Source of the DNA: an uncultured Pseudomonadota bacterium
Lineage (GTDB): Bacteria > Myxococcota_A > UBA796 > SXON01
Direction of reading: 5' to 3'
Assembly (NCBI GenBank): GCA_903921785.1
Contig: CAIXRH010000125.1
Coordinates: forward strand, 1-55,954
Length of the DNA: 55,954 bases
In this document: positions 4,387 through 31,332 of the stretch, piece after piece
Layout: every line of letters begins with the position of its first letter
How positions within the stretch are numbered: position 1 is the stretch's first letter
The notes under the pieces: generated by a model
Seen by the model: only the letters and a program-made list of their open reading frames with translations
Databases searched by the model: none
Told to the model about the DNA's origin: nothing
Made by a program: the position numbers and the translations under genes

Positions 4387-4499
4387 GGGGTCAGAGCGAT
4401 CGCGATCGCTTTTCCGTCCCGAGCGGCCTCCTTCGGCCCTCCAGCCCCCCGCCTCGTTCGCGAAACCGTCCGCGAATCGAACACGATCGCTCTGACCCC
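4387..4499 (+). repeat. repeat family A, copy 1 (113 bp, terminal inverted repeats)
   Basis: Starts GGGGTCAGAGCGATCG and ends with the exact reverse complement of those 16 bases. The right end contains GCGAATCGAAC just inside the terminal repeat, as in the other two copies. Copies 1 and 2 differ at only about three positions. The element encodes nothing credible and resembles a MITE or REP/BIME-like unit. Confidence 0.85.
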
Positions 4500-4518: not shown

Positions 4519-4631
4519 GGGGTCAGACCGATCGCGATCGCTTTTCCGTCCCGAGCGGCCTCCTTCGGCCCTCCAGCCCCCCGCCTCGCCCGCGAAACCG
4601 TCCGCGAATCGAACACGATCGCTCTGACCCC
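4519..4631 (+). repeat. repeat family A, copy 2 (113 bp, terminal inverted repeats)
   Basis: Nearly identical to copy 1, in the same orientation, 19 bases downstream of it. The left end reads GGGGTCAGACCGATCG and the right end AACACGATCGCTCTGACCCC. Differences from copy 1 are one base in the left terminal repeat and TT to CC in the middle, suggesting recent tandem duplication. Confidence 0.85.
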
Positions 4632-29761: not shown

Positions 29762-29899
29762 TCAGGGGCTGAACACCACCTCGGACAGGCACAGGTCTGG
29801 GGAGGTCGCGCCCGGCATCACCTCGGTGACGGTGAGCGTGACCTTCGTGGTGGTGGGCACGGGGAAGGTCAGCTCCTGCGCGTCCGCCGTCGTGGTTTC
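29762..29899 (-). pseudogene. C-terminal remnant of a discoidin/NADase-type glycan-binding-like domain
   Basis: The last ~45 codons of the long minus-strand frame (ETTTADAQELTFPVPTTTKV, then TVTEVMPG and CLSEVVFSP) read like the final strands of a jelly-roll domain found at the end of secreted myxobacterial proteins. They are in frame with, and downstream of, the RAYT gene, separated by ~400 bases of low-complexity sequence. I interpret this as the end of an older gene truncated by rearrangement; a genuine fusion protein cannot be excluded. Confidence 0.4.
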
Positions 29900-31180
29900 G
29901 CCGAGGCAGCGTCGCCGGGGCGAGCTCGACGCCCGTCGAGCCCTTTTCGCCGCCGGTGGCTCCTCGACCGCCGACGTCGACCGGTGGGCACGGCGGCGGC
30001 ACCCGCGCCGCTCCTCCTGAATCCACCTACCCATAAAGGGTATGCCGCTGAACGACGCAGGCGAGCCCGGCGACGCCGGGGACGCCGTCGGCTCCCAGCG
30101 CCGGCCCGCCCCTCCGCCGCCGGGCGGCCTGGCCAGACCTGCACCGAACGGGCGCAGGGACGCGGAATCACGCACGGCGAACGATGGTCCCACCCACGGC
30201 GTGTAGTACGTGTATCCACTTGTAACGGTCGACTCGGGCACCGGGGCGCGCACCACCGACGCGCTGGACCGCGTCGCGGGGTCGGGTGCGGCACTGGCGG
30301 TCGCCGCCCGGGAGGTCAGCTCCGCGAACCTTCGGGTTTGGCGAGGCACGGCGCGTCGGAGCTGGGACACCCGGGCGGCGCTACAGCCGAGGTGCTCGCC
30401 GATTTGCCCGTTGGTAAGCGTGGTCCGGCGCCCCAACCACCACGCGGCGAACGCCCGCGCGGGGTTGCCGCGGCGGCCGGCGCGGGCGGTGCGGAGGACC
30501 GACCTCGGCACGCCCGCCGCGGTCGCGACGGCGGCGAGGAGCGCCTCGACGTCCGCGGCCTGGGGACGGGCGGGCGTCTCGGGAGGCGGGGACGCGCCGC
30601 GCCAGAGGTGATCCGGGTCCCAACCCGCGGGCATCGGCGGCGACTCGCCGAGGCATGCGGCCAGGTAGTCCAGGTAGGTCTTGGTGTTTCCGAAGAGCCG
30701 ATCGACGGTGCCGGCGGAGAGCCAAGCCGGGCGACGTTCGTGGCCGAGGAGAGCGGGGTGGCTGGTCCACCGGGCGGCGTCCGCGTTCGGGGCGAGGTTC
30801 GCGCGCACCGGGTTGAGGTGGATGTAGGCGAGGACGTGCGCGAAATAGGCGTCGCTGTCTACGAGGCGGCTAAGGAATCGACCGCGGAAGACGGGACCGT
30901 CCCAGGCCTGGATGCGATTCAGGCGTTGGGTGAATTCTGCGCCTAGGTACTGCATCGCTCGGGAGAGGTTTCCGTCGGGGCACTCGAGGAGGAGGTGGTA
31001 GTGGTTCGGCATGATCGCGTAGGCGAGTATCTGGACGTTGAACCGCTCGGGCAGCTCGGCGAGCACGGCCAGGAACAGCTGGCAGACCCAAGCCTCCGCA
31101 AAGAGGGCGGCGCGCCGGGCGCCCCGGTTCATCACGTGGTGGACGGCGCCGGGGAAGTCGAGGCGGGGCTTGCGGGGCAT
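29762..31180 (-). CDS. REP-associated tyrosine transposase (RAYT, IS200-like Y1 family), apparently fused to a downstream remnant
   Basis: Begins at the ATG at 31180 (MPRKPRLDFPGAVHHVMNRG). The Y1_Tnp core spans ~160 residues with the HUH motif MPNHYHLLLE, the FTQRLNRIQ segment, and the conserved SDAYFAHVLAYIHLNPVRA containing candidate catalytic tyrosines. A C-terminal helix-turn-helix (LTNGQIGEHLGCSAARVSQL) is usual for this RAYT group. The true domain ends near base 30300; the frame then runs on without a stop to 29762. These transposases cleave single-stranded REP palindromes. A 112-bp GGGGTCAG-ended repeat lies 40 bp upstream. Confidence 0.8.
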   Translation of the reverse strand: MPRKPRLDFPGAVHHVMNRGARRAALFAEAWVCQLFLAVLAELPERFNVQILAYAIMPNHYHLLLECPDGNLSRAMQYLGAEFTQRLNRIQAWDGPVFRGRFLSRLVDSDAYFAHVLAYIHLNPVRANLAPNADAARWTSHPALLGHERRPAWLSAGTVDRLFGNTKTYLDYLAACLGESPPMPAGWDPDHLWRGASPPPETPARPQAADVEALLAAVATAAGVPRSVLRTARAGRRGNPARAFAAWWLGRRTTLTNGQIGEHLGCSAARVSQLRRAVPRQTRRFAELTSRAATASAAPDPATRSSASVVRAPVPESTVTSGYTYYTPWVGPSFAVRDSASLRPFGAGLARPPGGGGAGRRWEPTASPASPGSPASFSGIPFMGRWIQEERRGCRRRAHRSTSAVEEPPAAKRARRASSSPRRRCLGETTTADAQELTFPVPTTTKVTLTVTEVMPGATSPDLCLSEVVFSP

Positions 31181-31220
31181 GGGTGAACGGATGTTCACGA
31201 GACCGCCGCGCGGCAAGAGG

Positions 31221-31332
31221 GGGGTCAGGCCGATCGCGTTGATTTCTTCTCACGGAAGCGGCCCGAGGAAGGCACGCGCGCCGTCTACCCCCGCGATCCT
31301 GCCCGCGAATCGAACGCGATCGGCCTGACCCC
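31221..31332 (+). repeat. repeat family A, copy 3 (112 bp), upstream of the RAYT gene
   Basis: Starts GGGGTCAGGCCGATCGCGTT and ends with the exact reverse complement of those 20 bases. The right-end GCGAATCGAAC block and an AGCGGCC core are shared with copies 1 and 2 at 4.4-4.6 kb, while the middle has diverged. It fills most of the gap between the RAYT gene and phoD. Confidence 0.85.

Follow-up and report, generated by a model that had tools for sequence, protein, structure and literature searches.

The 112-bp inverted-repeat element found upstream of a REP-associated tyrosine transposase (RAYT) gene in the 55,954-bp stretch of DNA analysed here (the window) is best explained, with a probability that we put at roughly 0.7, as a non-autonomous, REPIN-like unit served by a RAYT of the TIRYT class, that is, by an HUH tyrosine nuclease carrying a DnaA-like helix-turn-helix (HTH). 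The window belongs to a freshwater, myxobacterium-type genome (7.48 Mb in 362 contigs).

The element and its RAYT gene

The element occupies positions 31221..31332 on the minus strand, runs from an A-end to a B-end in the direction in which the RAYT gene is read and scores 98.2 bits against the covariance model of its family (R1). The A-end repeat, distal to the gene (31307..31332, minus strand), consists of the tag GGGGTCAG followed by GCCGATCGCGTTCGATTC and has beside it an asymmetric inner box, GGATCGCG (31292..31299, minus strand; family columns 34-41), and the proximal B-end repeat (31221..31246, minus strand) carries the tag CTGACCCC, which is GGGGTCAG on the plus strand. A leader (31181..31220, minus strand) that resembles those of the RAYT loci on contigs C21 and C252 separates the element from the ATG at 31180. 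A previous inspection of the window from its letters alone (the sequence-only reading) had described perfect 20-base terminal inverted repeats and a distance of 40 bp to the ATG, and both hold. The two further copies in the same orientation that it had reported, with the block GCGAATCGAAC in common, were also recovered, as family members of 113 bp at 4387..4499 and 4519..4631 (both minus strand), the second being a tandem duplicate of the first, 132 bp apart. The 8-mer alone showed no significant excess in the window (6 occurrences against 3.5 expected).

The conserved part of the RAYT/TIRYT gene extends over 30290..31180 (minus strand) and encodes the HUH motif NHYHLL, the catalytic motif YIHLNP and a C-terminal DnaA-like HTH (approximately residues 211-297). 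Its product matches PF01797 (Y1_Tnp) with an E value of 7e-9 and reaches 71.5 bits against the NCBIfam model REP_Tyr_transpos, below the cutoff of 80. Pfam HTH domains were detected among 37 relatives (HTH_23 in five, Bac_DnaA_C in two), the window protein itself scoring for Y1_Tnp only, and the profile of these relatives matched TnpAREP 4er8 and DnaA domain IV in the PDB. The fold search with the predicted structure (pLDDT 89) gave the REP-bound RAYT 4er8 as best match and also returned the DNA-binding domain of Mycobacterium tuberculosis DnaA (3pvp, TM 0.73), IS608 and ISDra2. In extending the RAYT to 29762 the sequence-only reading went too far: homology ends near 30290, and the whole 472-aa open reading frame was rejected as a single RAYT. 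The rest of the frame, some 180 codons (29762..30289, minus strand), is an unrelated, variable tail that is probably not RAYT and whose last 38 residues or so match a NADase-type glycan-binding domain (NF047619, below cutoff); its sequence suggests a gene remnant fused in frame.

A TIRYT-class protein in a variant layout

Di Nocera described TIRYT/TIRtron systems, in which a RAYT is accompanied by GGGGWSAS inverted repeats, in 2013 (PMC3733652), and the corresponding class is TnpAREP subclass 2.1 of Quentin (2018; PMC6006769). The system in this genome has in common with that class the Y1 HUH core with its HUH and Y-x3-NP motifs, a C-terminal HTH of the Bac_DnaA_C/HTH_23/HTH_28 type, a GGGGWSAS terminal repeat near the gene (GGGGTCAG, or CGGGTCAG at one gene) and the dispersal of monomers and dimers in the genome. 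In TIRtrons, however, the repeats flank the gene on both sides, whereas here a closed A-to-B dimer stands upstream and no matching repeat was present downstream at any of the four RAYT loci; moreover, the dimer is fixed to within 1 bp, its ends are asymmetric and the lineage is Myxococcota. Because the features of the class are present and the flanking repeats absent, we file the protein in the TIRYT class and regard the locus as a variant layout.

In the case of REPINs, defined by Bertels and Rainey (2011; PMC3116915) as extragenic, RAYT-linked inverted doublets with conserved ends and a spacer conserved in length more than in sequence, the likeness lies in the fixed-length inverted doublet (112-113 bp in 14 of 14 copies), the variable spacer, the link to a RAYT and the extragenic position. 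The differences are that our element lacks the GTAG foot, has ends in which no imperfect hairpin is evident and is much less numerous (about 15 copies); among the 14 sequences, moreover, no excess of compensatory changes was seen. In its working the element resembles a REPIN, yet it is no GTAG REP. Insertion sequences of the IS200/IS605 type encode a related HUH tyrosine transposase fold, to which the IS608 and ISDra2 matches belong, but in them the transposase gene lies between the ends and the hairpins are small and subterminal, whereas here the gene lies outside both ends, the ends are long inverted repeats and the protein has an extra DnaA-like domain. As the RAYT gene is no longer found between the ends, it would be a resident gene and not part of an autonomous insertion sequence.

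A family of fixed length and free spacer

The pattern search of the whole genome, which permitted any total length from 86 to 116 bp, yielded 14 perfect elements, each of 112 or 113 bp, and none with the reversed control pattern. All 14 open at both ends with GGGGTCAG and not with GTAG, in agreement with the earlier remark that this terminus is unlike the classic REP. The covariance-model search contributed a fifteenth, RAYT-linked copy of 110 bp (C184:22134-22244; L045/L076), in which the outermost base is altered identically at both ends (CGGGTCAG...CTGACCCG), and also recovered composite elements on C104 and C132. These composites (L197 and L198) measure 172 and 202 bp, respectively, and the one on C104 encloses another sequence (CACAGAGATCGCGGAG...). 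Exact matches to the 16-base end number 45, of which 17 lie beyond the 14 elements and include solo and tandem ends. At L201 (C325) and L200 (C304), single ends stand in same-orientation repeats 109 and 148 bp apart and form no inverted dimers. With some 15 full copies, composites and solo ends, the repeat does occur elsewhere in the genome, as the sequence-only reading demanded of a RAYT-linked family.

The aligned copies are asymmetric, the A-end reading GGGGTCAGGCCGATCGYRTTCGATTT, with a box around GGWTCGCG on its inner side, and the B-end becoming more variable past base 16. Mean pairwise identity among the 14 copies is 86% for the ends, 56% for the A-box region (columns 27-41; 32% when shuffled) and 38% for the central 46 bp, against 34% in composition shuffles (z 4.5). 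The core being near random and the length almost constant, it is the length that has been kept and not the sequence; the residual core similarity together with the common A-box argues that the spacers are related by descent rather than random captures, and their near saturation that most copies are old. Twelve of the 14 copies lie outside codon-biased ORFs. No consistent target duplication, the hallmark of a classical DNA-transposon MITE, was seen in the 14 flank pairs, read by eye, and no empty insertion site was found by way of the neighbouring PhoD-like gene in same-genus genomes, where gene order is not conserved and no RAYT stands beside that gene.

The elements could in principle be structured RNAs or transcript hairpins in which the stem is the selected feature, and the fold of the window copy as single-stranded DNA is indeed better than that of shuffled sequences (z -5.5). 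Nevertheless, covariation between the two ends of an element did not exceed chance (in 74-304 of 500 shuffles the values were as high as those observed), so that each end seems to be conserved as a site of its own and not as half of one selected stem, a weak indication given 14 sequences. Considering also the A/B asymmetry with independent ends, and that neither a match in Rfam nor any promoter- or terminator-like site was found, we give the RNA explanation hardly any credence.

Coupling between repeats and RAYTs

The genome holds four Y1_Tnp genes, and an element lies just upstream of every one of them. At the three loci with perfect copies the A-end is distal, the B-end is proximal and the 40-bp leaders are recognisably similar, and the fourth locus has the CGGGTCAG copy. 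For most pairs of loci the DNA alignments start at or close to the outer tag of the element, from which it follows that element and gene behave as one unit.

To examine the phylum we used 379 genomes, 53 with a strong RAYT match and 326 without, and counted as true elements the inverted repeats that extend past the tag (a cut-off of 10 out of 16 bases, chosen by us). Such elements were found in 8 of the 53 genomes with a strong match and in 3 of the 326 without (Fisher P = 1e-5); two of these three have weaker RAYT matches and the third is 79% complete. Elements of this architecture hence track the presence of RAYTs and are not equally common in genomes devoid of them. Matches sharing only the 8-bp tag showed no RAYT bias (P = 0.74), and we therefore rejected tag-only matches in other genomes as chance. 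The exact 16-base end GGGGTCAGGCCGATCG is multicopy only here, with 33 copies in this genome and no more than one in each of the others among the 379.

A scan of public genomes provided 80 named RAYT relatives, mostly from metagenome-assembled genomes of Myxococcota/Deltaproteobacteria but also from Legionella, Kangiellaceae, Nitrospira, Armatimonadetes, Acidimicrobiales and others. An inward-pointing GGGGTCAG adjoins 41 of the 80, with the wrong orientation in three and a background of 9 tags per 164 kb, and in the pooled and de-duplicated set it is found at 47 of 107 loci, being absent near about half of the related RAYTs. Beside the relatives the exact GGGGTCAG was seen 89 times and other GGGGWSAS variants 10 times; what follows the tag is lineage-specific. 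Many relatives have the tag on both sides of the gene, and upstream and downstream repeats match at 0.83 within a locus and at 0.39 between loci. Loci with more distant RAYTs also have more distant repeats (Mantel r = 0.40; 0 of 5000 permutations). That repeat sequence tracks RAYT sequence, that the same tag points inward beside RAYTs across phyla and that each of the four RAYTs of this genome is accompanied by a copy in a fixed place make it very unlikely that the elements lie near RAYTs by coincidence and derive, as MITEs, from an unrelated insertion sequence, an origin that the perfect terminal inverted repeats and the small size would otherwise suit.

Which protein domain may read which bases

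Across 46 tagged loci, once the HTH was accounted for, variation at repeat positions 9-16 went with the Y1 domain (partial r = 0.20; 0 of 1000 permutations), and once Y1 was accounted for, variation at positions 17-28, chiefly 17-20, went with the HTH (0.38; 0 of 1000). These permutations ignore phylogeny and several segments were examined, for which reasons the recognition of positions 17-20 by the HTH is to be taken as a hypothesis and not as a result. When only Myxococcota/Deltaproteobacteria were considered, the link of the HTH to positions 17-20 persisted (0.30; 0 of 500), and that of Y1 to positions 9-16 did not separate. These correlations of sequences thus hint that the HTH may read positions 17-20 of the terminal inverted repeat. 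Going further, we tentatively suggest, as a possibility that we would not favour at even odds, that GGGGTCAG repeats may form a phylum-spanning REPIN-like superfamily beside the GTAG one, in which the HUH domain would read the tag and the bases next to it, the DnaA-derived HTH would read the lineage-specific positions 17-20, new RAYT/repeat pairs would arise through change in the HTH, and the fixed-length spacer would serve only as a ruler.

Mobility in trans or standing sites

To our knowledge no substrate mechanism has ever been assigned to TIRYT-class RAYTs, nor any role to their DnaA-like domain, and our literature search found no biochemical evidence for this class. We infer that mobility in trans is the best-supported mechanism. 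RAYT molecules would bind the two ends independently, and the lack of covariation is what separate sites would lead one to expect. The HUH domain would act at or beside the GGGGTCAG tag, the HTH would read the inner part of the terminal repeat, and the catalytic Tyr119 would nick the ends in single-stranded form. With their spacing fixed, both ends may be held in one complex, and we propose that in this way the unit reaches other intergenic sites in trans, by excision or by copying.

Alternatively, the elements may be mainly RAYT binding sites or operators kept for regulation (autoregulation by the upstream copy, for example), spread long ago and now immobile. The conservation of the ends while the spacers have become saturated suggests selection on standing sites, and such a role would suit both the unvarying 40-bp distance between the upstream copy and the RAYT and the dsDNA-type HTH of the protein. 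We nevertheless hold this alternative to be unlikely, because in many relatives the tag stands on both sides of the gene, as in a transposon, because ends also occur singly and in tandem, and because regulation alone does not explain a dispersed family.

Returning to the REPIN-like unit served by a RAYT, the proposal of the sequence-only reading that the repeat is a RAYT substrate draws support from the copies at all four RAYTs and from the co-occurrence in the phylum, but the class of substrate, although it has received little study, is not new, TIRYT/TIRtrons having been described in 2013. What is new here is a GGGGWSAS-type RAYT repeat family in Myxococcota, with fixed length and free spacer, and a closed dimer upstream of the RAYT in place of flanking repeats, to which we add, as a statistical hint, the signal linking the HTH to positions 17-20. 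Our literature search found no RAYT paper for Myxococcota, and for GGGGTCAG as a string it returned unrelated papers only. The family places REPIN-like biology in Myxococcota and suggests that the combination of fixed length and free spacer arose outside the GTAG REPs. Four RAYT paralogues, about 15 uniform elements and defined A and B ends make a compact test system, from which a specific prediction follows as to which protein domain reads which bases.

Other repeat families beside RAYT relatives

Other families have near-constant lengths of their own: 89-90 bp in genome G017 (six copies), 103 bp in G020 (two) and 102 bp in G016 (one). A cross-family inner box (GTTCG, AACGCCGG) was considered, and only G015, G017 and G020 seem related in it; we do not claim it for the genome studied here. 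Close RAYT relatives in genomes of the same genus as ours (L064-L066; G008, G010 and G007) have another inverted repeat, CGGAGGTTAAGGGTTAAGACTTAGC, on their flanks and lack GGGGTCAG. At L187-L193 (G017 and G015, of one genus) two families have a spacer motif in common (AACGCCG...) and differ in their inner terminal repeats.
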